A stretch of DNA of 64,000 nucleotides, from NCBI GenBank assembly GCA_022072055.1, contig JAJVIK010000004.1, positions 274,820 to 338,819 of the forward strand. Direction: 5' to 3'. Made by a program: the position numbers and the translations under genes. Under the pieces are notes generated by a model that was not told the DNA's origin, did no database searches, and worked only from the letters and a program-made list of their open reading frames with translations. Of the stretch, positions 937 through 21,586 are shown in pieces; position 1 is the first letter of the stretch; each line of letters begins with the position of its first letter. The DNA comes from a bacterium (GTDB taxonomy: Bacteria > Hinthialibacterota > Hinthialibacteria > OLB16).

Positions 937-1032
937 GCCCCTTCCCGACATTGACGCCTGCAATTCACGCGTACCGGCCCGTCGCTTTACGACGCGTCGA
1001 GTGACAGGCTCTACGAAAAGAAGTGTATACTG

Positions 1033-1063
1033 GCGCCCGGTTCCACCGGGCGCTTCTTTTTTT
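1033..1063 (+). terminator. Rho-independent terminator after the AAKK peptide gene
   Basis: Perfect 8-bp stem GCGCCCGG / CCGGGCGC (1033-1040 and 1046-1053) with a 5-base loop, followed by TTCTTTTTTT. It ends the plus-strand lysine-rich peptide transcript. The minus-strand restriction-modification gene ends at 1111, so the hairpin may also slow that transcript, though it has no matching T run on that strand. Confidence 0.9.
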
Positions 1064-1110
1064 ATATCCCCTTTTTTTCGGGATCGTGACGCGAGCTCGA
1101 GAACAGGGTT

Positions 1111-4100
1111 CTATTCGCCTCCGCCGGAGTCGAAGGTCGAAGACTTGACCGACACATAGTTCCGATCCAGCTCGTCTTGGAGCAGGAGGATACCGGCGAT
1201 GCGTCGAGCGATCCCGGTCAGCTCCTTGGCTTCCTCGGGCTTTAGCGCCCTCCCAAGCAAGTCTCGCTCCCGGTAGCTCAACCATTTCTTGAGGACTTGG
1301 TAACCGCCGATGTGAAACTCCCACACGGCCGCGGGGATGTTGCGCCAGTAAACGGAGTCATTGAGGTAAACATCGAGGGTCTCGGCCCCGAGTTGCCGGA
1401 TCGCGCGGCTTGCGGTCAGGTGGTTCAACTTGGCCTCGGCGTGCAGCGCTTCCCGCTCCTCGGGGATGTAAGCGCGCGCCACGGCGCGCCCCTTCCCCGG
1501 CATGGTGACCCCCGCCTTCCCGGCATGGCCCCACCCCACGGTGATCGCAAGCCCTTCGCCCCCCGTGTCGATGTGTCCTCCTCCCGCCTGGGTGACTGGA
1601 GCGACAGACCGGAAGAACGCACCCAGCTTCCCGGCGGTGATTCCGGGAACCTCTCGCTCCGTGTCGAGCAGAGTGGCGACCTGCTCCCCCAGCGCGGCTG
1701 AGGCCTCGAGCGCCTTGCGACTGTTCGGAAGCGGGATGCGCGGCCAGTCGCGGCGGAGACCATCGGCGTTTTCGGCGAGGTAAGCGGGGCTATAACCGAT
1801 GGCGAGCGCGTGCATCCAGATCAGCGAGGCTGTCTTGGGATCGGAGTCCGGGTCCCTGATCTTGAGTTTGGCGAGGTAAGCGCGCGCGGACGGGGAGAGG
1901 TTGGCGTGGGTCTCTCCATTTTCAAACAGTCCGTTCTCACGCTTTCCCCCACCGAATCCATTTGAAAGCAGAAAAGGGAAATGCCTTGCGTGACCGGAAA
2001 TGAAATCGTAGTCACACACCAGGCGAGAAACGTAGAAGGGGACGCCCTCTATTGCTCTATCCGCACTATCCCGGGTGATGAAGAAGCGGTTAGTCGATCT
2101 GCGATGGGCGAGTAACTCGGGGCTCGGCTCGCTGAACAGTGGGCGGATATTTGCCAAATAGGCCCATCTCACGTCAAAAACCTTAAAAGGGTAACGGACA
2201 ATTCGAGAAGGATCGAAGCTGTGTTCTTGAAGGAGCTTCTTTCGTGCCTCTGGCCCAATGATGCGATTCCCTGTCATCATGAGTGACGGGAAAATTGCAG
2301 CCACATCACTATCTGAAGTGCTCGGATTGAAATACTCGCGGAGCCTGTCCGCGAGTGCGCTCTGATCGATTGAGATAAGCGCGCCGGCCCTTCGCTCCAC
2401 TGGGCCGTTGTAATGGGAGAGCCCAATCTCCGAAATCTTCGCCCATCCAGTATACTGCGGCGATACATTCTCCGGGCGGAATGAAAACCGACTCTCTTTG
2501 TTTGGCTTCGATATTGCGTATCCCGCGTTGAACCTCTTCCGCGAAAGGCTTGCCAAGAGATCCGAGCGCTTGGTCACTCCCCAGAAATGCCGGAAATGGA
2601 CCTTCGGTCGCTTGTCGCGCGTCGGCTTGCGGGCCATCACGCAGACCGCGGTTCCGACACGAATCCCCTCGCGGTTGTGTTCGGTGGAAAAGACCGAGGG
2701 GTCCGGCAAACCTTCGGGCGTGAGCTTCCCGGTTTCCCGGCTGTCGCCGTTCATGCAGTCGAACCAGAGAGTGTCAAACTCGGAAAGGAAACGCTGGCGC
2801 ATGACCACAAAAGACGGATCGCCGAGGTAGGAGAAGTTGGATATGAAGGACACCACCCCCTTTCCGCTCATCTCCGCAATGCGACGCTCGGCCAGTCGGA
2901 AGAAGCGAACATAGAGATCGTCGAGGTTGAACTTCTTGATTCCCCAGCCCCCTTGGTCGGTGGGCTTGTTCAGGTTCACCTTGTAAGGCTCGACCAATCC
3001 TTGCTCCTCCTCGGGGCTGACCCCCGCGAAGGCGTTATAGGGCGGGTTTCCCAACACAACGAGAATCTTTGCCTTCTGTTTCACATGCGCCGCGGCGTCG
3101 CTTTCCTTCTCCAATTCGAGCCAGGGCGACACCACCCTTTGCTTGGGCTCCCTGGGTGGCTCCCAGCCGGTCAGCGCGTTGGTGAGGTAAACGCCAACCC
3201 GTTCCTCCCGCTCGTGCGAGAGCGGCGCCCCCACATTCTGAAGCATCAGGCCGAGCTGAAGGTGCGACACCACAAAGGGGGCCGGGAGGATCTCGAAGCC
3301 GAAAACACGGTCCATCGCCGCCTGCTTGAGATCGGAGGCGACAAGAGCGTCCCCCCCCTTTTCACGCAATGTGGTCGCGATCCGCTTGAGGGTTTCCACC
3401 AAGTAGGCGGCGGTGCCGCAACACGGATCCAGCACGATCACGTTCGGATCGGCGAGTCCATCGGGAAGGTCCAGCTCCTCTCGGAGGACGGTGTCCACCC
3501 GAGCCACCTGGTACTGGACAATCTCCGGGGGGGTGTACCAGACCCCCAGCTCCTTTCGGAGTTCGGGGTCATAGGCTTCAAGGAACGGCTCATAGAAATA
3601 CTGCACGGCGTACTCGTCTTGAAATCTCGCGAAAAACTCTTCTCGGTCCACCCGATTGAGGACGCTCGCGGCCCACTCGAGGACCTCCACCAGACCCAAG
3701 GGGCCGAGGCGGCTGGGCTTGGCCAGCTCCTCGTAAAGAGCGCGAATAAAGGGCACGTGCAGGGTCCAGGCGGCATTCCTCCAATCAAAGCGCTCGTTTC
3801 CCGCCTGCTTGCCCCGATGCCAGAGAACCCAGGCGGAAAACACTCCGTAGAAAATGGTCTGGACAAGCGTGGAGCGGAAAAAGTGCTCCCCTTTCTCGTC
3901 CACGAACCTCATCCCAAGCGCCTGTTCGAGGGCCAAGCGGACACTTTCCAGCGCGGGGAGGTCTTTCCCACGCTCCACTCGCGCGAGAGCATCACGGGCG
4001 TATGAGGCAAGGAACCACGCCAGATCTTTCGGGTTGACCAGGGGAGCGGCATGGAGGCAGGCGCGCTGGATGAACTCGATGAAGGGTCCGCCCACGTCGT

Positions 4101-4626
4101 TCGCGGTCGCGCGCGGGCGCGCCACAACCTGACTCCAGAATGCCTTTTCATCTTCCGCAAGCGAAAAGGCCTCCCGAGGAATCGGCTTTCCACCGGGACC
4201 CTGCTCCAGGATTTGGAATTCTCTCAGATTCGTGACGGTGACGATTCCATATCGCGCGAGGTATTCGCGGACCTGTTCGCTCCTGGCGATTGGATCGAGG
4301 CTTTCGGACGGAGGTTTGACTTCGATCACTCCACGGGATGGGACCTGACCTTCTTGAGGCCGCGCTTGATCGGATTTCTGAATCTGCTCCGCCGTGAAGA
4401 GCCCGCCATCGGGGAGTCCAGCCCCCTGGTTCCTGACATGGATGACGCAGGAGACCTTTGGTTTCAGGTTCGCGCCCGCGGAGCTGAACAGGTTCGAGAG
4501 CGCTGGATAATAAGAGGTTTCAGGGACTCCACCCCCGGTGGCGTGGATGGTTCCAAGGGCGGAAAGGTACTCTTCGGTCAGCGACCGTCCCCACTCAAAC
4601 CCCGTTTTCCCAGCGGCGGCACTCAT
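1111..4626 (-). CDS. Single-chain restriction-modification enzyme, type ISP/IIG-like (nuclease-methylase-specificity)
   Basis: An 1171-residue protein combining DNA cleavage and N6-adenine methylation. The N-terminal part has a PD-(D/E)XK-like arrangement: LPDGG (D73) and IEVKPP (E102, K104). A helical linker follows. The methylase core has YTPPEIVQ (near 365), the AdoMet-binding motif DPCCGTA (400-406) and the catalytic NPPY (527-530). The remaining 600 residues match the place of the target-recognition domain of LlaBIII-type ISP enzymes. The SF2 translocase of true type ISP enzymes is absent: no Walker A lies between nuclease and methylase. I chose the start at 4626 because the extra 49 residues possible from 4773 look non-native. 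No separate restriction or specificity gene adjoins it. Confidence 0.85.
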   Translation of the reverse strand: MSAAAGKTGFEWGRSLTEEYLSALGTIHATGGGVPETSYYPALSNLFSSAGANLKPKVSCVIHVRNQGAGLPDGGLFTAEQIQKSDQARPQEGQVPSRGVIEVKPPSESLDPIARSEQVREYLARYGIVTVTNLREFQILEQGPGGKPIPREAFSLAEDEKAFWSQVVARPRATANDVGGPFIEFIQRACLHAAPLVNPKDLAWFLASYARDALARVERGKDLPALESVRLALEQALGMRFVDEKGEHFFRSTLVQTIFYGVFSAWVLWHRGKQAGNERFDWRNAAWTLHVPFIRALYEELAKPSRLGPLGLVEVLEWAASVLNRVDREEFFARFQDEYAVQYFYEPFLEAYDPELRKELGVWYTPPEIVQYQVARVDTVLREELDLPDGLADPNVIVLDPCCGTAAYLVETLKRIATTLREKGGDALVASDLKQAAMDRVFGFEILPAPFVVSHLQLGLMLQNVGAPLSHEREERVGVYLTNALTGWEPPREPKQRVVSPWLELEKESDAAAHVKQKAKILVVLGNPPYNAFAGVSPEEEQGLVEPYKVNLNKPTDQGGWGIKKFNLDDLYVRFFRLAERRIAEMSGKGVVSFISNFSYLGDPSFVVMRQRFLSEFDTLWFDCMNGDSRETGKLTPEGLPDPSVFSTEHNREGIRVGTAVCVMARKPTRDKRPKVHFRHFWGVTKRSDLLASLSRKRFNAGYAISKPNKESRFSFRPENVSPQYTGWAKISEIGLSHYNGPVERRAGALISIDQSALADRLREYFNPSTSDSDVAAIFPSLMMTGNRIIGPEARKKLLQEHSFDPSRIVRYPFKVFDVRWAYLANIRPLFSEPSPELLAHRRSTNRFFITRDSADRAIEGVPFYVSRLVCDYDFISGHARHFPFLLSNGFGGGKRENGLFENGETHANLSPSARAYLAKLKIRDPDSDPKTASLIWMHALAIGYSPAYLAENADGLRRDWPRIPLPNSRKALEASAALGEQVATLLDTEREVPGITAGKLGAFFRSVAPVTQAGGGHIDTGGEGLAITVGWGHAGKAGVTMPGKGRAVARAYIPEEREALHAEAKLNHLTASRAIRQLGAETLDVYLNDSVYWRNIPAAVWEFHIGGYQVLKKWLSYRERDLLGRALKPEEAKELTGIARRIAGILLLQDELDRNYVSVKSSTFDSGGGE

Positions 4627-4910
4627 CCCCTCGCGCTTTCCCCCTCCAGGACTCGATTGTGCGGTTTCGGCGCGAAAGCGAAAAGGGGGGAACACGACTC
4701 CCTCCCGTGCATGGGCGAGGCTGAAGCCTCGACTCCGTGGCGAGGGGACCGCGGTGGAGATAATTCGACGCATGGTGGCTTAACCCTGCTCGCTCATGGG
4801 CCGAACCTCATCGCGGAGGTGCACTCCGCTTTTCGCCCCCCGCCCGCTCCCTCACGCTCGCGGCACGGTTGCCCCCAGGTTGGGATCGAGTCGCCATGCG
4901 CCAAGGTGGG

Positions 4911-4938
4911 ATTATTGAAATCAACTCAATTTCTTTAA
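4911..4938 (-). promoter_or_regulatory. Possible promoter of the R-M gene
   Basis: On the minus strand TTAAAG (4938-4933), a 16-base spacer and AATAAT (4916-4911, 5/6 match to the -10 consensus). It would give a leader of about 280 bases before the start at 4626, which is long, so the assignment is tentative. Confidence 0.3.
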
Positions 4939-4965
4939 GTTAAAGGTTTGGCCTTGATAAATCAC

Positions 4966-4993
4966 TTCAAATCGGGTATTCCTATACGATACT
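4966..4993 (+). promoter_or_regulatory. Possible promoter of the DUF1080-like lipoprotein gene
   Basis: TTCAAA at 4966-4971, a 16-base spacer and GATACT at 4988-4993, about 45 bases upstream of the ATG at 5039. TTGATA at 4954-4959 with TATTCC 17 bases later is an alternative. Weak matches only. Confidence 0.35.
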
Positions 4994-5038
4994 GGCTGAT
5001 GTCCGGGTCGGGGGAACCCGGGAAGAGGGGGGAGATTC

Positions 5039-5854
5039 ATGTCCAGACCGTTTCGCTTTCTTGCGACCACCGGCGCGCTGGTGTTGCTCGCCGGATGCTT
5101 CGCTCAACTCACTCCACAACTCCTGAGCACTCCATATCAGGAGCCGATCGAATCGGTCCGCGAGTTCACGGATGAGTTCAACAGCCCCTCGCAGCTGGGC
5201 ACGCGCTGGCAGCGGGTGGCCGGCTGGTGGCGAATCCACGAGGGCGAGCTCTTTCAGACCCTGCCGTGGAAGAGTTCCCTGCCGGGAGAGTTTCAGATCA
5301 TCTATGTGTACGGCCTCGCCTCGGGTCCCTACGAAGTCGAGACTCGCCTCAACCTGCTTCAAGAGGGAGACCAGTCCGCGGGGATCCTGCTTCGGTTCGA
5401 GGACCAGAACAACTTCTACTTGCTCCGGCTCCGGCACTATCCACGCTGGCAAGATTTCCTTGATCTCACCCAGTATGTGAGCGGGGTTCGGCGCGAGGAC
5501 CTGCGCCGGGTGAACCTTTCGTTGAAGCCGGGCGAGTGGTATACCCTGCGCGCCGAGGATCGAGGAAACGAGATTGTGGCCTTCCTGGACGGGAACGAGA
5601 TGTTCCGTTACCCCACGCCGGACCGCGCGGCGGGAACAGTCGGACTCGCGGTCAAGACCGGAAAGGCCGCTTTCGATCACTTCAGCGCCTCCTTGTACTC
5701 CGCGGGTGTTGATAACCTTCCGACCCCGCCCGAACCACCACGGTCCACTTCCGGTGATCCTTCCCCTCCACTGCGACCTTACAGCTCCCGCGCGGGAACC
5801 AACCTCATCGAGAACCCGCCCTCCAAGGACTTTCAGCCTCCCAAGGGAGATTGA
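5039..5854 (+). CDS. Lipoprotein with a LamG/DUF1080-like jelly-roll domain
   Basis: 271 residues. Residues 1-20 are a lipoprotein signal with lipobox LLAGC (C20 acylated). From about residue 43 the sequence FTDEFNSPSQLGTRWQ opens a concanavalin-like fold of the DUF1080 (3-keto-disaccharide hydrolase) / laminin-G type, with the usual pattern W..HEGEL, a central ..AGILLRFEDQNNFYLLR strand pair and AGTVGLAVKTGKAAFDHF near 213-230. The Pro-rich tail is probably disordered. Such domains bind or cleave glycans; no catalytic residue can be named here. The start is set by a strong purine-rich Shine-Dalgarno (GAGGGGGGAG). It is followed after 77 bases by obgE, which appears to have its own promoter. 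A second DUF1080-type domain occurs in the 14.8-16.6 kb gene. Confidence 0.75.
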   Translation: MSRPFRFLATTGALVLLAGCFAQLTPQLLSTPYQEPIESVREFTDEFNSPSQLGTRWQRVAGWWRIHEGELFQTLPWKSSLPGEFQIIYVYGLASGPYEVETRLNLLQEGDQSAGILLRFEDQNNFYLLRLRHYPRWQDFLDLTQYVSGVRREDLRRVNLSLKPGEWYTLRAEDRGNEIVAFLDGNEMFRYPTPDRAAGTVGLAVKTGKAAFDHFSASLYSAGVDNLPTPPEPPRSTSGDPSPPLRPYSSRAGTNLIENPPSKDFQPPKGD

Positions 5855-5895
5855 GCGGAACACGTTAGCGACTTTCCGTCCAGGGACGGCGGGGG

Positions 5896-5923
5896 TTGTC
5901 AGGGCCTGGGCAATCCCTATAGA
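5896..5923 (+). promoter_or_regulatory. Putative obgE promoter, possibly giving a leaderless mRNA
   Basis: TTGTCA (5896-5901), a 16-base spacer and TATAGA (5918-5923). The obgE ATG begins at 5932, eight bases after the -10 box, so the expected start of transcription falls at or next to the start codon. No Shine-Dalgarno is present (the bases before the ATG are pyrimidine-rich). Confidence 0.55.
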
Positions 5924-5931
5924 TACCCTCC

Positions 5932-7056
5932 ATGTTCATTGACCGGGTGAAGGTTCATGTCCGCGCCGGCAAGGGTGGCCGCGGTGCGGTCAGCTTTCGC
6001 CGTGAAAAGTATGTCCCGATGGGTGGCCCCGATGGCGGAGACGGCGGACGCGGCGGGGATGTGATCTTTCATGTCGATCCCGGCGAGACCACATTGATCA
6101 CGCTGCATGGTCGCCCTTGGTACGCCGCCAAGGATGGCGGCAATGGCTCCGGCGCCAACAAACGCGGTTCGGACGGAGCAAGCATCCGTTTGCCGGTTCC
6201 TCCCGGAACGGTGGTCCGGAATGCCGAGACCGGAGAGATTCTATGCGACCTGGTCGGGGATGAGCAGGAAGCGATTGTCGCCGCCGGCGGCAAGGGGGGT
6301 AAGGGGAACGCCGCGTTCGCAAGCTCCACTCACCAGACTCCGCAGCACGCCCAGCCCGGACAGCCTGGCGAGGAGTTTGATCTTCTGGTCGAGCTCAAGA
6401 TGGTCGCGGATGTGGCCCTGGTCGGATTCCCCAACGCCGGGAAATCCTCTTTGCTCAACGCGATCACGCGCGCGCGCTCACGGATTGGGGATTACCCCTT
6501 CACGACCCTCTATCCGGTATTGGGCAGCCTTCCGCTCCTGCCGGAAGAGAGCGCGGAGTTTCAGCGAATGGCCTGCGAAGGCGGCTCTCATTCGAAGGCT
6601 CCCCCACGCATCATCCTCGCGGACATTCCAGGAATCCTGGAGGGAGCTTACCAAGGAGTCGGGCTGGGACTGGAATTCCTGCGCCATATTGAAAGAACCC
6701 ATGCGCTCCTGTTTGTCCTGGATGTTTCGGTCGGACGAGAACGGGATCCGATGGAGGCCTATGGCGCTCTCCTCGAGGAGATCGGGAGCTACGCGCAACG
6801 TCTTCTCGAACTACCCCGATTGGTGGCGCTGAACAAGATCGATGAAGCGCTCATGGAGGAGGTCGAGACTCTAGCTGATCGTTTGACGAACCCTTGTGGT
6901 CCCGCCGGCGCCCTCCCCCCTGTGGCGGTGTTTCCAATTTCCGCCCTGCAAAAGCAAGGGCTGGAGCCACTCCGAGACGCGCTTGTGCACCTGATGCTCC
7001 GACTTCGCTCGCAGGCTGTTCAGGCCCCTCCCACGCAGTCGTCATTCCCGATTTGA
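5932..7056 (+). CDS. obgE: GTPase ObgE/CgtA
   Basis: Conserved ribosome-associated GTPase linking large-subunit assembly to stress and the cell cycle. 374 residues, usual size for a form without a long C-terminal OCT domain. The Gly-rich Obg fold occupies residues 1-158 (GGKGGRG-type loops, GGDGGRGGDV). The G domain follows: G1 GFPNAGKSS (165-173), switch II DIPGILEGA, G4 NKID. Residues 205-225 carry a small insertion (EESAEFQRMACEGGSH) between G2 and G3, less common in the family. The start is fixed by the highly conserved MFIDRVKVHVRAGKGG beginning. It lacks a Shine-Dalgarno and sits directly behind a -10 box. The kinase gene downstream begins 108 bases later with its own SD. Confidence 0.97.
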   Translation: MFIDRVKVHVRAGKGGRGAVSFRREKYVPMGGPDGGDGGRGGDVIFHVDPGETTLITLHGRPWYAAKDGGNGSGANKRGSDGASIRLPVPPGTVVRNAETGEILCDLVGDEQEAIVAAGGKGGKGNAAFASSTHQTPQHAQPGQPGEEFDLLVELKMVADVALVGFPNAGKSSLLNAITRARSRIGDYPFTTLYPVLGSLPLLPEESAEFQRMACEGGSHSKAPPRIILADIPGILEGAYQGVGLGLEFLRHIERTHALLFVLDVSVGRERDPMEAYGALLEEIGSYAQRLLELPRLVALNKIDEALMEEVETLADRLTNPCGPAGALPPVAVFPISALQKQGLEPLRDALVHLMLRLRSQAVQAPPTQSSFPI

Positions 7057-7164
7057 TCCTCTGGGAGTGGTGTATTTTCCCCCCTAATTTCCGTGCAGTC
7101 ACGGGATGGAATGGTCGATATTTCCCAGATCGAGTGGGAATATCTCGGAAGGAGATCGCGTTCC

Positions 7165-11658
<4,494 letters not shown>

Positions 11659-11665
11659 GCCGCTC

Positions 11666-12418
11666 TCAATCCCCCAGGGAGTTCAGGCTCCAGTCATAGT
11701 CCTGGTGCTCGACCGTTAGCTCCCGGATGTGGCCCTTGTCGCCGCCCTTGTGGTACCGGGCAATGAAGCCCAGCGCGCCTCCGCTCTCCTCGAAGTCCTC
11801 AGCGTACCACTGAAACAGCGCCGAGATCGAGGCGCGCCCCTTCTTGAAGTCCAGATGCGTCCGATGCGGATCGTTAACGAAAGCGGAGCAGACCGAGTCG
11901 AGTTGCGTATTCAGTCCATCCGCGGTGAACGCCGCGCGGTGGAGCGGGGGGCAGCCCTTCGAGGCGCAATTGAGCGCGAAATGGACGCGGGGATCCTTGA
12001 AGCGCTTGCGGATCACCTCGTGTTCGAGATGGTTCAGCGTGATCTTCCCCAGCGCGGTTTCATGGGTGAACTGCTCGAAAAAGGCGTTGTCCTTGAAGTC
12101 ATGCAGCACGCTCTTCACCGGCCAGTGGTCGAGCACCCCCTTGAGCACCAGCGCGTTGTAAAGGTTCAGGAAATAGGCGAGCTGGGCCCCCTTGGTGGGG
12201 AGGGTTTTCGGATGGATGCCTCGAAGTTCCGCAAGGTACTCCTCCAGCTCCCCATCAAGCTTCCGCAGGGTTGTGTAATCCACCCACCCCGTGTCCGCGT
12301 CCACCACCCTTGCGAGGATGGCGCTAAAATGGTCGTGGGGCGCCTCGCTCGCGCGTCCTTGCTGAATTGTGAAACAACTCAGCAATAACAACATCGCGCC
12401 CGTCAGGATTCTCTTCAT
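11666..12418 (-). CDS. Secreted DUF547 protein
   Basis: 250 residues with an N-terminal signal (KRILTGAMLLLLSCFTIQQGRA). The remainder matches DUF547: WVDYTTLRKLDGELEEYL, then AQLAYFLNLYNALVLKGVLDH, VHFALNCASKGCPPL and the C-terminal FQWYAEDF. DUF547 proteins have a papain-like permuted fold of unknown reaction; the conserved Cys in NCASKGCP and His residues are present. A strong SD (GGAGGAAA) fixes the start. The gene ends seven bases from the convergent kinase gene, with no terminator between them, and follows the flavoreductase-NapH gene on the same strand after 88 bases, so the two may be co-transcribed. Confidence 0.85.
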   Translation of the reverse strand: MKRILTGAMLLLLSCFTIQQGRASEAPHDHFSAILARVVDADTGWVDYTTLRKLDGELEEYLAELRGIHPKTLPTKGAQLAYFLNLYNALVLKGVLDHWPVKSVLHDFKDNAFFEQFTHETALGKITLNHLEHEVIRKRFKDPRVHFALNCASKGCPPLHRAAFTADGLNTQLDSVCSAFVNDPHRTHLDFKKGRASISALFQWYAEDFEESGGALGFIARYHKGGDKGHIRELTVEHQDYDWSLNSLGD

Positions 12419-12506: not shown

Positions 12507-14735
12507 TCAGGCTCCTTCTCTCATTTGCACCGGCGAGGCGGCCAGGCGATCCATCCGAATCACCCGCCCACTCCTGTCCGCTTGCCCGAACGAAAGGACC
12601 CCCGTGGGGCAGGAGTGCACGCACGCCGAGCAACGCACACACTCGGGGTCCTCCATCGGTCTGCCCTTGTTGGCGAAGTTCATCACATCGATTCCCTGGT
12701 GACAGACCGAGGTGCACACCCCACAGGAAATACATTTCTTTTTCTCGGAGAGAATCCGGAAGCGTGAGAAGCGGGCGTAGATGTGCATGAGGGCGGCAAG
12801 CGGGCAGAAGAAGCGGCACCACACTCGTCCCGAATACCAGAAGTACAGCCCAACCCCCAGAATCCCGGAAAGAAAGATATCCACGCCATACTTGTACACG
12901 GGGTCCTTCAGGGGATGGAAGACGCCATTCACGAATGGGAGCCCCAACCACCCGAGTATCCGGAGAAGCAGGAGAACCGTCGCGAACGCCAGGATCGCTT
13001 GCCCCGCCATGTTCAGCCGATTCCATCCCGGTCCGTGGGGCATCTTGGAGCGGTGCGAGTCGCCCAGGGTCTCGGCGAGCGCCCCGCAGGAGCAGATCCA
13101 CCCGCAATAAGCCCCCTTGCCGTAGAAATAGATCAGCGCGGGGATGAGAACAAAGGTCTGTCCGAAGGCCACAACGAGCCAGGCCCACAGCGGTTGGTCG
13201 GTGAACACATTGTAGATGAACAACGGCCACGCAAGAACAAAGCCCGCCGCGCGCCAATACTCGCGCCCGTGCGGGTCATAGTCCACCCTCGGGAAGAAGG
13301 CATCCTCGAACCAACCCGGCAGAAGCCCATTGTGGCCAAGCCACGGAAACACGATGGTGGGGAGGAGAAAGAGGGGAATGACCTGAATGGCAATCAGCGT
13401 CCAGGTCTGAACGGTGATGTAAGGGGTCTTCCTCCGGCGAATCCTCCGGATTCCAAATCCGGTGACCACGAGCGAGTAGGCGAGTCCGTAGTAGAAGGAT
13501 GGGGTGGTCATGGAGAGGGCGACTGTCCCGAAGAGGGACGAAGGGTTGAGCGCCTTGCCGGTTTCGATCAGGTTGTAGGGGAACCAGCCCTTGGACACGA
13601 AGAGGGCGGAGATCGGGTTGCCCCCAGATTTCCAAAGGTACAGGAACACGCACAACAGCAAGAAACCGCCCATCGCCAGTCGCTGTCGGGCGCCAAGTTC
13701 CCCCTGAATGGGGATGCCGCATCGGCGGAAGAAATCGAGCGGGGCCTCGCGCCCGATCATGACAAACACAACCTCATTGGAGAGAGTGAGGGTCTCCCCT
13801 CCCGCGACGGAAAGAAGGACCTCCTTCTCCCGGATCAACCGGACTTCGCTTCCGAGAAAAAGGCGGAGGCTTCCCTTCCCTTCCGGGTTTCCGGCGAGCG
13901 TTTCGAGCGCCGCGACGTTCTCGGGCTTCGGGCGCGTGAACTCGGCGCGGCGATGGCTGAGGCTCACCTCGGCCCCTGCTTCGGACAAGGCGATTGCGGT
14001 CTCGAGTGCGCTGTCACCACCCCCGACCACGAGAACTCGCTTCCCTTTGAAATCCTTGGGGTCGTGCAGACGGTTATAGACCTTGTCGAGATCCTCGCCG
14101 GGTACCCCGAGTTTCCTGTGGTTCCCGCTTCGCCCAATCGCCACGATCACCCGTCGGGCAAGAATCGGAGAGTCCCCCTCGCGCGAAACCGCGAGCAGAT
14201 CTCCTTTTCGAGCAATGCGCTCGGCTTGGCCGGCTCGCGGTCGAATCTCGAACGCGGCAATCTGATCCTCAATCTCGGTGATAAGGCCCTCTTTCACGGT
14301 CGCAGAAACCTGGAGGTCGCCCGCCGGCCGCATCTCCAAGGGATAGGTGTAGATCGGTTTGGCTTTCGGGAAATTGACCAGTGTCGAGAGAGGCTGGGCG
14401 GATTCCAGGAGGACAAATGACAGACCGCGCTTCTTGGCCTCAACCGCCGCGGCGAAACCGCTCACGCCCGCGCCCAGGATAGCGACATCCACCACTCCCT
14501 CTTCGGCCTCCCGTCGCTCGCGCGCGAGAGTCTTGTCGGAAGCGATCTCCCGGACCGCTTTCACCCCGGAATCGAGCGCGAACTTGAGAAGCGGGACTCC
14601 GGTCAGATCCCCGACCACATAGACCCCACGAAGGGGGGTGCGCCCACGCTCATCCGCAACGGGGAGCCTCTCGACTCCACCCGAGGGCCATTGGGTGTGG
14701 AGCCAGTTTGTGTAACGTCTCAATCGGTCAAGCAT
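12507..14735 (-). CDS. Circularly permuted FAD/NAD(P) reductase fused to a NapH/NosR-like membrane ferredoxin module
   Basis: 742 residues. Residues 1-65 contain GVYVVGDLTGVPLLKF, the FAD-closing motif normally found at the C-terminal end of thioredoxin-reductase-like enzymes. Then come the dinucleotide fold GAGVSG (88-93), the NAD(P) site GGGDSALE (238-245) and VFVMIGREAPLDF (323-335). The TrxR redox CxxC is absent. From about 355 there are several membrane spans, the NapH/CcoG-type CGWICSCG and CRFFCPLA motifs, and two 4Fe-4S clusters: CISCGVCTSVCH and CVRCSACVHSCP. Inferred role: NAD(P)H-dependent electron transfer through FAD and iron-sulfur centres to a membrane acceptor. The start at 14735 follows family-like sequence; 14783 is possible. 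No clear SD is seen. Confidence 0.85.
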   Translation of the reverse strand: MLDRLRRYTNWLHTQWPSGGVERLPVADERGRTPLRGVYVVGDLTGVPLLKFALDSGVKAVREIASDKTLARERREAEEGVVDVAILGAGVSGFAAAVEAKKRGLSFVLLESAQPLSTLVNFPKAKPIYTYPLEMRPAGDLQVSATVKEGLITEIEDQIAAFEIRPRAGQAERIARKGDLLAVSREGDSPILARRVIVAIGRSGNHRKLGVPGEDLDKVYNRLHDPKDFKGKRVLVVGGGDSALETAIALSEAGAEVSLSHRRAEFTRPKPENVAALETLAGNPEGKGSLRLFLGSEVRLIREKEVLLSVAGGETLTLSNEVVFVMIGREAPLDFFRRCGIPIQGELGARQRLAMGGFLLLCVFLYLWKSGGNPISALFVSKGWFPYNLIETGKALNPSSLFGTVALSMTTPSFYYGLAYSLVVTGFGIRRIRRRKTPYITVQTWTLIAIQVIPLFLLPTIVFPWLGHNGLLPGWFEDAFFPRVDYDPHGREYWRAAGFVLAWPLFIYNVFTDQPLWAWLVVAFGQTFVLIPALIYFYGKGAYCGWICSCGALAETLGDSHRSKMPHGPGWNRLNMAGQAILAFATVLLLLRILGWLGLPFVNGVFHPLKDPVYKYGVDIFLSGILGVGLYFWYSGRVWCRFFCPLAALMHIYARFSRFRILSEKKKCISCGVCTSVCHQGIDVMNFANKGRPMEDPECVRCSACVHSCPTGVLSFGQADRSGRVIRMDRLAASPVQMREGA

Positions 14736-14810
14736 GCTGGGAAGCGGGAGTGGACGGGCGGACACCCCTGGACTAACGCTCACAACGCCGAGAGGTCATA
14801 CGCCGCCTTG

Positions 14811-16628
14811 TCAGTCCAGCCTAACAAGTCGAAGGCTGCGAAATTCCAAGGTGGAACCGTGGTTCTGGAGACCGATGGTTCCTCGACGGGGGCGGTGGCG
14901 GAGCTGCTCATACGCATCGACATCCGCATCCGCGACCCCCTCGCCGTTGATCCGAACGCGGATGCGCGAGCCAAGACAGAGGATCTCCATCCGGTTCCAT
15001 TCCCCGGCGGGCCGGATCGCATCCTTCGCGGCGGGGACCACCGCGTAGATGGATCCCGCGTGCTGGTAGGGCTTGATGTCCTTGTACACCTCGGCCTTGT
15101 CATCCAGGACCTGAATCTCGAATGCGTGGAAGGTATCGAGCACGTTGTCGAAGTTGCGGATGAAGACCCCGCTGTTCCCGCCCACCGGCAAGCGGTACTC
15201 CAGGGACAGAAGGAAATCGCCATACCCGCTCTCCTTGAGACGGATCGAGCTCCCTTGCCCGGTGAAAGTCAGAATCCCCTCCTTGATGATCCACCCCGTG
15301 GGGTCGCCCCCGTGATCGGAGACCCACCCGCTCAGCCCGCTCTCGAGCAGATCGATCCCTTCCTCGGGAGAGGGGAGGATGTCGGCCTGGAACACCTGTC
15401 CGGACCGGATGGCGGCGGGAATCGAGTCCCCAATCCGGGTCACGCCATCCTCCCGGTGGAACTCGAAGCGCCCTTTGATTTCCCGGTCCGCCGGAACCTT
15501 GAGAATCTGACGGTCGGGTCCGAGCGCCCGATCCGGTTCATACCGGGTCCCATCCTCGGCCACGAACACCACCCGCTTCTGCAGCCAGCGCCCGAAGAGC
15601 CGGTTGCGGTCGAGCGAGGGGACCGCCCCCGCGCCATAGAGGAAGCCGAGCACCCGACTCCCGCGAAGCACCCATCCGACCGCCACCATGTGCTTGTCTT
15701 CCGCGCCCAAGTTCCCGGCGAGCTCTTGTTCGGGACTGAAGTGAAGTCCATCCGTTGAAAGCGAGTAGAAAAGCTGTGGACCATTGCCGTGCAGGGCCAT
15801 CAAGTACCAAGCCTCACCGCCCACCGCGACCTTTTTGACATCGTTGACAAAGTGCCGACTTTCAAGGGCGTGCCCCTCATATTGGAAGTGTTTAGGGTCT
15901 TTCGAGGAGGCGCGAAACACCTGGCCGCGGTCCTTGAAATTGCAGAAGTAGAGGCGATAGGAGTCCTCTTCCTTGAGCAACACATTCATCCCATTGATAT
16001 CCGCCGCCGCGAAGGGGGGGTATCCCTCGATGGAGATCAGGTCCGAGGTTTGAGCGGAATAGGGGGCGGGCGCTCCGTTCCAGGTCTTGCCATCCGGGCT
16101 GCTGAAATAGGCCGGCTTGTTGAGTCCCGCGCTGTCCGGGTATGCGGTGCACATCAGCTCATAACCCCCCGAAGCGCCAGGGATGGCTGAGACATTGCAG
16201 ACATGGATGAAGGGGCCATGATCGATGATCAGGTGTCGCTCGTCGAAATCGAGGAAGTTGCCGGTTTCCACCGAATAGATCCGGTCGTTCCCACTGGGAA
16301 CCCCATCCCATGCGCCGTAGAAAAGCCGCCAGCCGTATCGGGTCTCCACCGCCGAGGGGGCATAGATGTTCCGGAACACACCCGAATTCCTGGGGGCCAG
16401 GATCGGGGAGCGGGTGTCGGGGAGGAAATGCAGGCTCCCCTTTTCCCAGAGACTGGGGTCAAAGACCCCCGCCGCGAGGCCGTGAATCTCCACAGTTCCC
16501 ACTTCGGCCTGGCCTGGGATCGCCTGAATCCCAATCTCCGCCGAGGAAGCCATTTGGGCCCCTCCGAGCGCCAACGCAAGACCAACCACCCCCAACAAAC
16601 CGCGAGCGTTCACGACCATTCCCTCCAT
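14811..16628 (-). CDS. Secreted protein with a GH32/43-like propeller and a C-terminal DUF1080 domain
   Basis: 605 residues with a signal peptide (about residues 1-30, ending near MASSA). Residues 60-390 have the blade pattern of five-bladed glycosidase propellers (NIYAPSAVE-RYGWRLFYGAWDG, AYFSSPDGKTW, YRLYFCNFKD, ..YLMALHGNG). From about 430 comes a DUF1080 domain (LLESGLSGWVSDHGGDPTGWIIKEGILTF, YGDFLLSLEYRLPVGGNSGVFIR, GEWNRMEILCLGSRIRVRINGE, GTIGLQNHG). DUF1080 proteins include 3-keto-disaccharide hydrolases. The combination suggests extracellular or periplasmic glycan processing, but I cannot name the catalytic acids. It precedes the reductase gene by 75 bases and follows the glycosyltransferase gene by 23, so an operon is likely. 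Confidence 0.75.
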   Translation of the reverse strand: MEGMVVNARGLLGVVGLALALGGAQMASSAEIGIQAIPGQAEVGTVEIHGLAAGVFDPSLWEKGSLHFLPDTRSPILAPRNSGVFRNIYAPSAVETRYGWRLFYGAWDGVPSGNDRIYSVETGNFLDFDERHLIIDHGPFIHVCNVSAIPGASGGYELMCTAYPDSAGLNKPAYFSSPDGKTWNGAPAPYSAQTSDLISIEGYPPFAAADINGMNVLLKEEDSYRLYFCNFKDRGQVFRASSKDPKHFQYEGHALESRHFVNDVKKVAVGGEAWYLMALHGNGPQLFYSLSTDGLHFSPEQELAGNLGAEDKHMVAVGWVLRGSRVLGFLYGAGAVPSLDRNRLFGRWLQKRVVFVAEDGTRYEPDRALGPDRQILKVPADREIKGRFEFHREDGVTRIGDSIPAAIRSGQVFQADILPSPEEGIDLLESGLSGWVSDHGGDPTGWIIKEGILTFTGQGSSIRLKESGYGDFLLSLEYRLPVGGNSGVFIRNFDNVLDTFHAFEIQVLDDKAEVYKDIKPYQHAGSIYAVVPAAKDAIRPAGEWNRMEILCLGSRIRVRINGEGVADADVDAYEQLRHRPRRGTIGLQNHGSTLEFRSLRLVRLD

Positions 16629-16651: not shown

Positions 16652-18907
16652 TCAGGACCCATCATCATCCTTCCGGAGGTTGGGCGGAGTCCAGCCCGAA
16701 TCCCCGATTTCCAGAACCCACAGGCTTCCCTCCAGCGAGCCGGGATATTCGTGGAGCTTGGACTCGGGATATTGAGCCTGAATCCGCTGAAGGATCGCCT
16801 CCCGGTGAGGATGGAATTCGTTCAGGGCGATCAGAGCGGGACGCTTGAGCGGCTCGGGCGCGCCGGTCTCGGGCGTGCTGCGAATGAACGTGAAGCGGTC
16901 CTTGAACCCGCTCATGTGCATCAGCGCGATGATCACCACCTCGTTGTGGCCCTCCGGGAGGAGATAGTAGACATGCGTGTCGGGAAGGCTCTCCTGGGCG
17001 AGAGCCAACACATACGAGCCGGATGCGGCGGTGGGCTGGCGGTAGAAAAGGACCTGATTCTGGCGCACGTTCAACCCCAACGCGGAGGCCACCAGGATCC
17101 CAGAAAAGCATACCGCCGGAAGGCTCCCCAATGTGGATTCCACGAGCAGGTGAAGCTTCTCCAACCCGACCGCGGCGGCGATCACCACGAAAGGAACCAG
17201 GATCAACATCCGGGTAATCAGCGGATACTCCCCCGCTGAAATCATGCCGACCACGCCAAGGGTGGCAAGATACGAGAGAAGGAAGGCGAGCCAACGCCGT
17301 TTCCAACCCCAGACGAACATGTACGCAAGCCCCAGGATGCCAAGCGCGCTGCTCACCCGATCCACAAGGCCGCCGCTCACATAGTGGCGCACGGAGGCCC
17401 GGCGGGCCTCATAGGATAGCGGGAGCAGCAGCGATTGGACTGTGTTCTCCTTGAGGCGACGGAAGGATTCGGGGCTGGTGTAGATGCCGAGCCGGCCCTC
17501 GACCGGTTTGGCCTCTCCCTTCCAGTTGGCGATGTGCTGGGCGAAGGCGGTCTGGTTGATCGCCAGCGACAGGAACGCGACGGGATTGCGAAAGATCGGC
17601 AGGGTGGTGACCACCAATCCGAGGGAGAAGGCAAGGGCAAGCCCCACACTCCGCATCGACTTTCGAGTGGGGACTCCGGAATAGTAAACCAGTGCGTGGA
17701 GGGCGACCGCCACAACCGCCACGCGCGCCGAGAAGAAGGTGTAAAACCCGATTCCCGCGACAATCCCGCACAGACAGAAGAGCATCAGGCTGCGCTCGAT
17801 CCTCGCCCACAGGAACAGCGCCAGGGAGGTCACCAACGGAAACATCACCTGATTATTGTTGTAGGGAATGTGCGCGAAGGAGACATTGTAGTGGGCGAAG
17901 GCCCACAGCAGCGCCGCCGCCACCGCCGCGCGAACCCCGACAAGCATTCGGGCGATGGCATAGATCGGCGCGATGCACAGGGCCGCGGAAAGGACCGAGG
18001 GGAGCCGCCAGTTGGTGGCGGTGAAACCGAAATAACGCATCAGCCAAGCCTGCGCGAGGGTTGAAAGCTCCGGATGAGTCCCATAGACCCCCTTTTCGGA
18101 GAAGATCGGGACACGGTCCGCCTTGGCCTGCACCTCGGAGTGGAAATAGAAAGCGTATTCATCCCCGATGATGCTGTAGCGCCAGTGGGTGAGGTCGTGC
18201 ATATAGTAGCCGATCGCCAAGAGGGTGAGCGCGAACACGAAGAGCCATTCCGAGGCGCGCCCTCGCAGCCTCGGCCAAGTGGCCAGGCGCAGGTCGGCGA
18301 ACAAACCGGCCATCAAGGCCGAGAGCATCGCCAGGATCCAGGCTGGTCCCGCGTAAGGGGAGTACATCGAGCCGGTCGTGTTCACAAACAACCACTTGAA
18401 CCAGCCTTCCTCCATGTTCCGAGGCCGTGTGGCGGTCGCCCCCAGCGCAAAGGCCAGGAACACCAGCGAGAGCGCGGCAAAGAACTGAACCTGCGACCAA
18501 GCCAGCCCCGCCGAGAGCAGCGGCGTGCGCGGCTCCTCCGGGGGTGTCGAGGCTTCACCCGCCTCGATCTTGTTCTCCAGAAGTCTCCAGCCGAGGGCGA
18601 GGGCCGGGATGACCGAAAGGAGCGCGCACAGGAGCGCCACCGAGGTCGGAAGCGCGGGAAGGCAGAAGGCGGGCAGGAATTCGAGAGTGGGCGCCCAATC
18701 CCCCAGTTTCTCTTTGAGGATTGGCAGGGCGCTCTCACGATAGGCCATGAGAGCCTGGGCGAACGCGGCAAGCAGCCCGGAAAGCGCCAGCAGGACCATC
18801 CGAGGGACGACTCTCCACCCAGACCCTTCGGGGCGACGGCGTGGGAGCGGGGGCGGGCTATCGGTGGTCTCGGTCTCGGACACGGTGGCGGGGGTCGGGG
18901 CGATCAA
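16652..18907 (-). CDS. Large polytopic GT39/ArnT-like glycosyltransferase
   Basis: 751 residues. A Pro-rich cytoplasmic start is followed by about a dozen hydrophobic spans. The first periplasmic loop has YSIIGDEYAFYFHSEVQA, which places the acidic DE pair where GT-C (PMT/ArnT) enzymes keep their catalytic acid, and later loops contain THPELSTLAQAWLMRYFGFTATNWRLPS, a typical GT39 signature. The C-terminal 170 residues are soluble and unassigned. GT39 members transfer sugars from polyprenyl-phosphate donors to lipid or protein. It starts nine bases after the preceding giant membrane gene on the same strand, so the two are translationally close and probably act on the same product. Confidence 0.8.
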   Translation of the reverse strand: MIAPTPATVSETETTDSPPPLPRRRPEGSGWRVVPRMVLLALSGLLAAFAQALMAYRESALPILKEKLGDWAPTLEFLPAFCLPALPTSVALLCALLSVIPALALGWRLLENKIEAGEASTPPEEPRTPLLSAGLAWSQVQFFAALSLVFLAFALGATATRPRNMEEGWFKWLFVNTTGSMYSPYAGPAWILAMLSALMAGLFADLRLATWPRLRGRASEWLFVFALTLLAIGYYMHDLTHWRYSIIGDEYAFYFHSEVQAKADRVPIFSEKGVYGTHPELSTLAQAWLMRYFGFTATNWRLPSVLSAALCIAPIYAIARMLVGVRAAVAAALLWAFAHYNVSFAHIPYNNNQVMFPLVTSLALFLWARIERSLMLFCLCGIVAGIGFYTFFSARVAVVAVALHALVYYSGVPTRKSMRSVGLALAFSLGLVVTTLPIFRNPVAFLSLAINQTAFAQHIANWKGEAKPVEGRLGIYTSPESFRRLKENTVQSLLLPLSYEARRASVRHYVSGGLVDRVSSALGILGLAYMFVWGWKRRWLAFLLSYLATLGVVGMISAGEYPLITRMLILVPFVVIAAAVGLEKLHLLVESTLGSLPAVCFSGILVASALGLNVRQNQVLFYRQPTAASGSYVLALAQESLPDTHVYYLLPEGHNEVVIIALMHMSGFKDRFTFIRSTPETGAPEPLKRPALIALNEFHPHREAILQRIQAQYPESKLHEYPGSLEGSLWVLEIGDSGWTPPNLRKDDDGS

Positions 18908-18916
18908 GGAAGCGCC

Positions 18917-21586
18917 TCAGATTCTGTTCGAGGATGGTCCGCGATTGTCCCTTGGCGCGGCTGGCGTGAACCAGTGGTATGGAGGAACCTCCATGAGTCC
19001 TGGACCGGCTGGAATCTCCAGGCTCATATAACCTCCCCCGAAACGTTCGATCTTCCCGACCTCAAGCACTTTTCCGTTGGCCATACGGTCGGTCAGCGCG
19101 AATCGGAAAATCCGCTCCGGCGAGTCCTCCCGGGAGGATGCCAGTTCCACGCCATCGAGTTTCACCCAGACAGGCCGGGGGTCTTGAATGATGAAATAGA
19201 ATTCATGGGTTCCCGAGGGGAGGTTCACCGTGGCGGTGTAACGAATCTCCTGCTCCACCGCTCGGCCCATTTCCGGGTCCTCGGAGGAGCCGCGAGTGAA
19301 GATCACGGGGCTGATGGACTGAAAGGTCTTCCCTTCCGGACCGGGAGCGCCGCCGCGGAGGCGCAGGGTCTTGAGCCAGCCGTGCATGGGGATCGAGTAC
19401 AGGTCCGCCGGACTGAGAGTAACCTCCTCGGTGGCGCCGTTCGTGGGCTTGTAGGCCAACCGGAGATAGAGCGGCATGGGGGTCCCGGGAACGAGCGGCG
19501 AAAGAGAGAGGGTGGTCAGACCGCGTAGGGCCTGGAAGGTTCCGGACTCCTCCGAAACCAAAGGCGCGGCGGGATTGTGGTAGGATATCACGCAGCCGGG
19601 GCAGTCCACCGATAACATCCCGGATTGCGGTAGCATCAGGGTCCCGGTGATCCGGCCCTGCTCTTCCCATTGACGCGCGACCTCCGCCAAGCCGAGTTTC
19701 TTGCCGCGAGTCCGATACCCCCACCCCGACAAGGTCCCGACCGGGTCCCGAACCTCCTCCCACTCCCACTTGGCGAAGACGCTCCGTGGGAGTCCGGCTA
19801 GCTCCTGGCAGTAGCTCTCGGCCTGGATCGACACCGGTCTTCTGGCCCAGTTGGCGGGGAGCCAGTCCCCGAAATTGAGGATCCGGACACGCTTGCCATC
19901 CAACAGGAAGCGGTCAGTCGAGCTTTCGTAGGGGATGATGCTCACATCGCAAGTGTCGACATCGCGGAGGAGGCGCCTGGCGCGCGCGTTCTCATCCCAA
20001 TCATGGCACATGATGGTTTTGGGGTCCCTCCACATGTCGAATTGGAAGAACTTCAAACAGGTGACCGCGGATAGAACCAAGAGCGCGAGGACCAGCCATC
20101 GTCGAAACTCCTTGAGCGCGCGCGGAGAAGAGAGGGATCCCGCCGGCCAGAGGTGGTAGAGCGCAATGGCAACCCAAACCGCGAGCGCCGGATGCGCCGG
20201 AAGCGCGCGATGGCCATTGGGCGCGCCATTCGCCACCAGCGAGCAGGCTGTTCCCAAGAGGAACAACCAGAGAGTGATCGGAAGCGCCGGGCTCTTCCAG
20301 GCCAGCGCGAGCAACCCGGTCCCCACCAGCAGCAGGCCGCCTAGAGGAAAGGGATGCACCGGAGAGCCGGGCACGGTCATGAACCGCGCCTCGTTCAGGG
20401 TCGGATCGAACCACATTCGAAAGTGGTCCATGGTCTTGCGCTTCCAGAGGCCCTCGATCCGTAGGACCTCCTGGTTTTCGAGCGTGTAGTGCGCGGGCAC
20501 CTGGCTCCAGGTCCAGCCGCGTTCCTTGTAGTAGGCTTGAAAGGGGAAAGCCGCGACAAAGGGGGCCGCCACCACGATCAGCGCCAAGAGTCGCAGCCAC
20601 CAGCCCCGCGCGAGGGTTTTCCAGTAGGGCAGAAGCAGAGCGGGCAGGGTGAGGGCATAACCCACGAGCACCCGCGCGGCATAGTAATCCCAGTGCGCCA
20701 CCCCGAGTCCGAGGCCGCCGAGGATCGGACCGGAGACCCCCTTGAGGATCAGGCAGCGAGTGATCCCATAGAGGAAAACCAGCTGAGGGAAGATCAGGCT
20801 GGTCCCCATCGGCACCCGGCTGTAGTACTGGAAGAAGGGGGACAGGACAAACACAATCCCCGCCATCCAGGCAAGGCCCCGTGGGGCGAAGAGAGAGATC
20901 CAGCGCACCAAGACAATCGGGCACAGCGCCGCCAGCGCCATCGGATAGACGCGCATCGCGAAGACTTGATCCTCCATCAGGATCAGGGAAAGCCCATAGA
21001 AAATGTCGGGGATCGCGGGAAGGCTGGAGGGGTTGGTGTAGAGCGGGTGGAGGTGCTGACGCCACATGTCCCGCCCGCTCATGGCGATGGTCCCCACATC
21101 CCCGTTCATCGCGATGGGAACCTTGTCCCATCTCCAGAGGGCCAGAAGGGCGGCCGCGACCGCCAAGGCCGCGAAGGCGACAAGCTCTCCATTCAGAACC
21201 TTCTCCGGGGGACGGAGGCTGAGGGTGCGCTTCCGGCTTTCCGGGAGGAAGACCACGCCGGCCACGAGCGCGGCGGGGATCAGCCAGCCATAACGGCGTT
21301 GCTCCAACAACCACGGAAAGGCCAAAACCAAAATCAGCAGCACAAGCGTGTAAGCAAGCGCAACCCAGGGTCGCTTGAGGGGTTCCGGGGAGGTCGCCTC
21401 CGGCTCCTCTCGGGGACCATCCGGCGCGGGGTCCGATTCCTTCCGGGGACCATCAAAGAGGATGAAGGCGGTGGAAAGCAAATAGAAAGCGGCCAGGAAC
21501 ACGGCCAGGGCGACCCGCACGATGTCGTTGCGCAGCCGCCAAGTCTGGTCGCTGAAGTCGAAAAACTGTTGGACCGCCTCAAGCAT
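18917..21586 (-). CDS. Giant polytopic GT-C-like membrane protein with large C-terminal soluble part
   Basis: 889 residues. The N-terminal 480 hold many transmembrane spans and the loop VPIAMNGDVGTIAMSGRD, with an acidic residue in the position of the GT-C catalytic site, then LHPLYTNPSSLPAIPDIFYGL, an ArnT-like loop. Residues 530-889 are soluble: a Trp/Glu-rich segment and a probable beta-sandwich carbohydrate-binding part (TATVNLPSGTHEFYFIIQDPRPVWVKLDGVEL). No closer family is recognised. It heads the minus-strand run that continues with the GT39-like gene nine bases downstream. Divergent from the SGNH hydrolase gene; the 113-base gap contains no clear promoter for either. Confidence 0.7.
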   Translation of the reverse strand: MLEAVQQFFDFSDQTWRLRNDIVRVALAVFLAAFYLLSTAFILFDGPRKESDPAPDGPREEPEATSPEPLKRPWVALAYTLVLLILVLAFPWLLEQRRYGWLIPAALVAGVVFLPESRKRTLSLRPPEKVLNGELVAFAALAVAAALLALWRWDKVPIAMNGDVGTIAMSGRDMWRQHLHPLYTNPSSLPAIPDIFYGLSLILMEDQVFAMRVYPMALAALCPIVLVRWISLFAPRGLAWMAGIVFVLSPFFQYYSRVPMGTSLIFPQLVFLYGITRCLILKGVSGPILGGLGLGVAHWDYYAARVLVGYALTLPALLLPYWKTLARGWWLRLLALIVVAAPFVAAFPFQAYYKERGWTWSQVPAHYTLENQEVLRIEGLWKRKTMDHFRMWFDPTLNEARFMTVPGSPVHPFPLGGLLLVGTGLLALAWKSPALPITLWLFLLGTACSLVANGAPNGHRALPAHPALAVWVAIALYHLWPAGSLSSPRALKEFRRWLVLALLVLSAVTCLKFFQFDMWRDPKTIMCHDWDENARARRLLRDVDTCDVSIIPYESSTDRFLLDGKRVRILNFGDWLPANWARRPVSIQAESYCQELAGLPRSVFAKWEWEEVRDPVGTLSGWGYRTRGKKLGLAEVARQWEEQGRITGTLMLPQSGMLSVDCPGCVISYHNPAAPLVSEESGTFQALRGLTTLSLSPLVPGTPMPLYLRLAYKPTNGATEEVTLSPADLYSIPMHGWLKTLRLRGGAPGPEGKTFQSISPVIFTRGSSEDPEMGRAVEQEIRYTATVNLPSGTHEFYFIIQDPRPVWVKLDGVELASSREDSPERIFRFALTDRMANGKVLEVGKIERFGGGYMSLEIPAGPGLMEVPPYHWFTPAAPRDNRGPSSNRI

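Follow-up and report, generated by a model that had tools for sequence, protein, structure and literature searches.

The gene at positions 12507-14735 (minus strand) of the window, the 64,000-nucleotide stretch of bacterial DNA analysed here, encodes a complete protein of 742 amino acids. It joins a circularly permuted NAD(P)H flavoreductase, similar to YpdA and thioredoxin reductase (TrxR), to a NapH-like membrane domain and two 4Fe-4S motifs. Sequence profiles give good support for the permutation. With moderate confidence we read the protein as an NADPH-driven, single-chain, membrane-bound electron donor that often serves organoarsenical or glycolipid synthesis. The anatomy is confirmed; the function is narrowed, not proven.

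Architecture of the fusion protein

A sequence-only reading of the window had given the coordinates of the gene correctly. The open reading frame reaches back to a GTG at 14783; the start was set at the ATG at 14735 because homologues begin at a methionine aligned with it, and residue numbers count from there. A single full-length copy is found in the genome. Read from the N-terminus, the protein consists of the FAD cap, the FAD/NAD(P) core, six predicted membrane helices accompanied by cysteine motifs of the NapH kind, and lastly the two 4Fe-4S motifs. Pfam matches the protein with Pyr_redox_3 (E 7.2e-28), Pyr_redox_2, Fer4_5, Fer4_10 and dicluster ferredoxin models. AlphaFold2, run with a 54-row alignment, gives a confident model (pLDDT 91.6, pTM 0.86).

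The FAD cap precedes the core

Canonical TrxR and YpdA proteins end in a C-terminal strand-helix cap that carries the FAD-binding GD motif. In the fusion protein the corresponding segment, the strand GVYVVGDLTG and a helix (residues 21-66, 14538-14675, minus strand), stands ahead of the core, and its Gly42-Asp43 (14607-14612) precedes the FAD dinucleotide motif GAGVSG (residues 88-93, 14457-14474), as the sequence-only reading had noticed. The glycine is conserved in 54 of 54 rows and the aspartate in 53. An additional helix with a conserved WLHTxWP (residues 1-20, 14676-14735), specific to the family, lies outside the cap. The FAD Rossmann and NAD(P) core (residues 78-345, 13701-14504) is co-linear with canonical columns 2-254, and contains the NAD(P) motif GGGDSA (residues 238-243, 14007-14024) followed by an SxRxxxFxRPK stretch.

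To compare the profiles, 54 family rows were aligned with 26 canonical proteins. Residues 22-66 align with the canonical C-terminal cap (hhalign, P 6.8e-9, query residues 1-77, columns 257-304 of 319), while residues 78-345 match columns 2-254. Returning the cap to its place after the core gives a single alignment over columns 2-304 and a score of 404. The native order scores 355 and the core by itself 354; 20 column-shuffled controls range over 353.7-357.9. The first 65 residues, searched as a profile of 51 rows, match 55 PDB chains at E<=1, individually weakly (best E 0.0041). By name, 54 of the 55 are flavoproteins of the disulfide-reductase type, matched C-terminal to their NAD domain. The first residues could have belonged to another fold, and on this comparison they match the TrxR/YpdA cap instead.

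The same order is found throughout the family. The cap precedes the core in 73 of 76 members, is undetected in three and follows the core in none, and no second cap is seen downstream of the core. In the canonical order of the superfamily the FAD cap comes after the NAD domain, and the fusion family departs from it. Matches to the YpdA/Bdr model TIGR04018 in 61 genomes agree with this: the nine above the cut-off do not end until profile positions 312-315 of 316. The match of the window protein (112.6 bits, cut-off 339.9) covers positions 1-264, and with two ferredoxin-type relatives the end points range over 262-267.

Sequential structure aligners left the cap unplaced, which would fit an N-terminal segment that is a remnant of some other domain, with an incomplete flavin site and a protein inactive as a reductase. 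We regard this as very improbable, given the conservation of the cap and its profile match, a pLDDT of 78-96 per block across the stretch, and the failure to detect another cap downstream. The VIA-align ranges for YpdA extend to model residue ~673; this is read as the aligner picking up a few ferredoxin residues, since a sequential method cannot place the moved cap.

Long N-terminal extensions in four homologues (L012, L014, L025, L034) were read as overrun of the open frame in GC-rich DNA, because conserved homology starts only at the WLHTxWP helix.

The reductase core resembles YpdA

The best solved fold match to the model is YpdA (Foldseek E 6e-18; structural alignment Z 23.9, rmsd 3.3, 264 residues aligned), and the bacillithiol disulfide reductases YpdA/Bdr (7a76, 7a7b) are the best match to the FAD and NAD(P) core in both sequence and fold. 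The two-dinucleotide-binding core of thioredoxin reductases and of TrxR-type ferredoxin-NADP reductases is present according to both Pfam and PDB matches. The redox CxxC of the TrxR NADPH domain, reported missing in the sequence-only reading, is indeed absent from the window protein; a CxxC occurs in just two of the 54 cores, those of L047 and of the L029 paralogue. Ferredoxin-NADP reductases of the TrxR type also lack it. The fusion differs from these reductases in its permuted order and in its electron acceptor, presumably its own ferredoxin domain. Four residues after the NAD(P) motif (S260, R262, R268, K270) are near-invariant in the 54 rows, and we take them to favour NADPH.

In YpdA the catalytic Cys14 sits in GGGPCG (PMC6591457). 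The same position in the fusion family, within the GAGVSG motif, holds Ser in 44 and Ala in 10 of the 54 rows, and never Cys. The fusion thus differs from YpdA/Bdr in its N-terminal cap, the lack of Cys14 and the added membrane iron-sulfur domain.

The membrane and iron-sulfur part

The membrane part (residues 349-629, 12849-13691, minus strand) has six long helices in the model (349-370, 412-434, 438-468, 517-538, 576-596 and 600-629) and a re-entrant stretch (about 474-510). It carries the motif CGWICSC (Cys 544, 548, 550; 13086-13106), and is followed by CRFFCP (Cys 640, 644; 12801-12818) and the two ferredoxin motifs (Cys 668/671/674/678 and 699/702/705/709; 12609-12734). All 54 rows have the full set of 13 cysteines. 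The positive charges of the loops favour an N-in/C-in topology for the six helices, and therefore the reductase, the cysteine motifs and the ferredoxin would all face the cytoplasm; in the model the predicted cofactor sites are likewise all on the cytoplasmic side.

Modelled alone, the membrane part obtains a pLDDT of 88.1 and has no significant match among solved structures: Foldseek gives none at E<=0.001, and the best Z in structural alignment is 5.8. A PDB sequence search with it matched 21 chains, all aligning in the ferredoxin region only. Against the NapH model (TIGR02163) it scores 70.1 bits over residues 529-716, the cut-off being 213.

The likeness to NapH/MauN, NosR and RdhC/PceC lies in a membrane module with paired cysteine motifs, and the two C-terminal 4Fe-4S motifs (Fer4_10) are common to the fusion, NapH and NosR. 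NapH and NosR carry two CX3CP motifs (PMC5928378); the fusion has one (640-645), its first membrane motif being CX3CSC, and it has extra helices ahead of the NapH-like four. No FMN-binding domain, a feature of NosR and RdhC, is found among the best 25 of 30 Pfam families. Compared with NapH and NosR, the cytoplasmic flavin reductase takes the place of a quinol-only input or of an FMN domain outside the membrane. The sequence-only reading had called this part NapH/NosR-type. The NapH likeness is borne out by the profiles and the confident model, and the NosR label holds for the paired motifs and the two 4Fe-4S motifs, but not for the FMN domain, unseen in those Pfam families, or for the predicted cytoplasmic position of the cofactors.

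A transmembrane haem route was considered and rejected, as the membrane helices of the 54 rows contain no conserved His pair.

Genes beside the fusion

Directly downstream of the fusion, 88 bases away on the same strand, lies a DUF547 gene (11666-12418, 250 aa), which the sequence-only reading had suggested as a partner. It is a recurrent one. Among 72 scanned adjacent proteins, the window's own included by choice, DUF547 occurs seven times; no adjacent co-directional family except GT2 is as common, and DUF547 is found both before and after the fusion. In the available flanks of 80 loci we find DUF547 in ten, TIGR04283 or a membrane glycosyltransferase in nine, GT2 in seven, the arsenosugar radical-SAM gene ArsS in five and ArsM in four. 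One of the ArsS matches (L006, 8.6e-10) is weak, and the gene may encode a different radical-SAM protein. Cluster genes are present in just 17-18 of the 80 flanks (17 without L006), while none of 48 other loci has any, although these amount to 174 kb against about 613 kb outside the fusion genes. Other neighbours, such as UxuA, DUF3179 and YceI, are lineage-specific.

One cluster (L154) consists of TetR, DUF547, ArsS, ArsM, the fusion, a nucleoside phosphorylase and TIGR04282; similar clusters are found at L155, L160, L163, L166, L068 and L077, and in Methylomonas LW13. On a Pseudoalteromonas plasmid the fusion lies among glycosyltransferases and a TIGR04282 gene (below the model cut-off), with no ArsS in the stretch read. 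Of these genes DUF547 alone adjoins the fusion in the window, and ArsM/ArsS adjacency is a feature of other genomes.

Most of the 80 loci show no shared operon, which would be expected if the protein were a general inner-membrane NADPH:quinone oxidoreductase and its linkage to ArsS and DUF547 a habit of certain lineages rather than its function. This is the main rival, because quinol handling and modular use have been proposed for the membrane modules of NapH (PMC5928378, PMC8238504), and we give it a minor but real chance. Against it, two phyla repeat the co-occurrence of the fusion with ArsS and DUF547, and the fusion is physically clustered with ArsS, ArsM or glycosyltransferases at loci of Verrucomicrobiota, Planctomycetota, Acidobacteria and Gammaproteobacteria.

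The N-terminus of the window DUF547 protein resembles, by eye, a signal peptide. A protein that looks exported is a misfit with a purely cytoplasmic route. The recurrent adjacency would suit a transmembrane donor that passes electrons outward to DUF547 as a periplasmic partner; transfer across the membrane is proposed for some NapH-like systems (PMC8238504). We hold this to be unlikely, since the searches made found no redox domain in DUF547, the predicted clusters are on the cytoplasmic side, and neither the haem His pair nor, in the Pfam families considered above, the FMN domain is seen.

Homologues of a PNP_UDP_1 nucleoside phosphorylase occur in two of the ArsS/ArsM clusters (L154 10778-11611, L068 2327-2947), and are candidates for the removal of adenine from the ArsS product. 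One cluster (L157, genome G251) has the order ArsM-TIGR04282-ArsS-DUF547 without the fusion; DUF547 is therefore linked to ArsS independently.

Co-occurrence with ArsS and DUF547

ArsM and ArsS are frequent companions of the fusion family in the genome, and sometimes in the operon. We compared gene presence in two sets of genomes, each labelled with the phylum of its centre locus, by Fisher tests that treat the genomes as unrelated and ignore kinship. Among 294 Planctomycetota genomes the fusion is present in 34, ArsS in 88 and both in 24, i.e. ArsS is found in 24/34 genomes with the fusion against 64/260 without it (p 2e-7; 5e-7 without the centre). Among 194 Verrucomicrobiota genomes (fusion in seven, ArsS in 14, DUF547 in 25) ArsS is found in 6/7 fusion genomes against 8/187 others (p 3e-7; 3.5e-6 without the chosen centre), and DUF547 in 7/7 against 18/187 (p 3e-7; 2.0e-6 without it).

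Ten of the 34 Planctomycetota fusion genomes have no ArsS. Of the 88 genomes with ArsS, 64 have no fusion, and the ArsS pathway can therefore do without it. In nine of the 34, no more than about 5 kb separates ArsS from the fusion gene. Four of these (G388, G428, G547, G569) have an identical spacing of 4.9 kb and may be close relatives, and in G388 and G569 other genes intervene. In the window's own family two genomes (G000, G002) have both genes and one (G001) has neither. In the genome of the window ArsS is on a different contig (C25) from the fusion, and adjoins a permease of the ArsP_1 family that NCBIfam names a Cu/Zn efflux transporter.

Proposed function

We infer the following route for the favoured membrane-bound donor. 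In this permuted YpdA/TrxR-type reductase, with its cap at the front, the NAD(P) half would connect directly to the first membrane helix. NADPH, taken here in preference to NADH, would give electrons to FAD, and FAD would pass them to two 4Fe-4S clusters of the C-terminal ferredoxin; from there they would reach the cysteine site on the cytoplasmic face of the membrane. A single-chain path of this kind from NAD(P)H to the membrane had been put forward from the sequence, and the profiles and the confident model support it. In many lineages the fusion and DUF547 may supply the reductive step of an ArsM/ArsS/glycosyltransferase pathway for organoarsenicals or glycolipids; the final acceptor most likely belongs to that pathway, which may use a membrane or lipid substrate or a quinone. 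The suggestion of an alternative to Rnf/Nqr found no support: the recurrent neighbours are ArsS, ArsM, DUF547 and glycosyltransferases, no link to respiration was seen, and neither the Pfam/NCBIfam matches listed nor the neighbour genes include an Rnf/Nqr subunit homologue or context.

According to PMC8552651, SsArsS with SsArsM catalyses the initial arsenosugar steps, for which its passages on these enzymes name ArsM and ArsS alone and leave the fusion protein unmentioned; the substrates and products of ArsM are trivalent there, and pentavalent forms arise through oxidation. A radical-SAM enzyme is described in PMC12159101 as adenosylating arsenic. Two roles would agree with this: the reductase could bring arsenic back to the trivalent state, or it could feed the radical-SAM cluster.

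The link with ArsS, ArsM, nucleoside phosphorylase and glycosyltransferases makes these genes candidates for those later steps in the making of arsenosugars and arsenolipids that are still unsolved. The natural circular permutation in the TrxR-type fold would in itself be a clean example of rewiring that lets a flavoprotein plug directly into the membrane.

The family and a second permuted architecture

A scan of genome contigs identified 126 relatives, and 80 of these, with 50-64% identity, were retained. Going by the titles of their records, they occur in Planctomycetota, Verrucomicrobiota, Acidobacteriota, Gemmatimonadota, Latescibacterota, Eisenbacteria, KSB1, Methylomonas and others. The family is widespread in bacteria yet unnamed: two plasmid records with matches annotate the protein as 'NAD(P)-binding domain-containing protein', and no description of it was recognised in the literature searched, with subscription papers mostly outside that search. 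The present results would give a name to this family of many phyla.

A second permuted architecture (L085, L086, L136, L140, L145-L147, L150) also has the cap before the core. It shares 34-35% identity with the fusion over cap and core (L085, L086), and differs in having an N-terminal membrane helix and no NapH-like part; in L085 and L086 a dicluster ferredoxin follows the helix. A tree built from 49 cores neither rejects (p-AU 0.418) nor demonstrates that the permuted proteins share one origin. We can imagine, as a speculative extension, that the disulfide-reductase flavoprotein fold was permuted once, in ancient times, and so founded a clade of membrane donors, and that the fusion branch is the missing NADPH-driven arsenosugar/arsenolipid reductase, which would either hold methylarsenic in the trivalent state for ArsM/ArsS or supply electrons to the radical-SAM enzyme.

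On an Emticicia plasmid (L150, 5644-11854) the reductase of the second architecture adjoins ccsA and is followed by cytochromes with 23 and 40 CxxCH motifs. One Planctomycetota contig (L029) carries two permuted fusion genes close together (1006-3369 and 4065-6473), and the divergent copy has 33% identity to the window protein.

Other genes of the window

Directly upstream of the fusion, 14811-16628 (minus strand) encodes a 605-residue protein with a C-terminal 3-keto-disaccharide hydrolase domain. It is preceded by two large membrane proteins on the same strand, one (16652-18907) with a match to PMT_2, a mannosyltransferase of the dolichyl-phosphate-mannose type, and the other (18917-21586) with no Pfam match; these two echo the membrane glycosyltransferases beside the fusion elsewhere. 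On the other side, 7093-11658 (plus strand) encodes a hybrid histidine kinase of 1521 residues with MASE1 and multiple PAS domains, several of the PAS units being near-repeats. The 1220-residue product of 1111-4773 (minus strand) matches the Type ISP C-terminal specificity domain and an N6 methylase, and is likely a single-chain restriction-modification enzyme.
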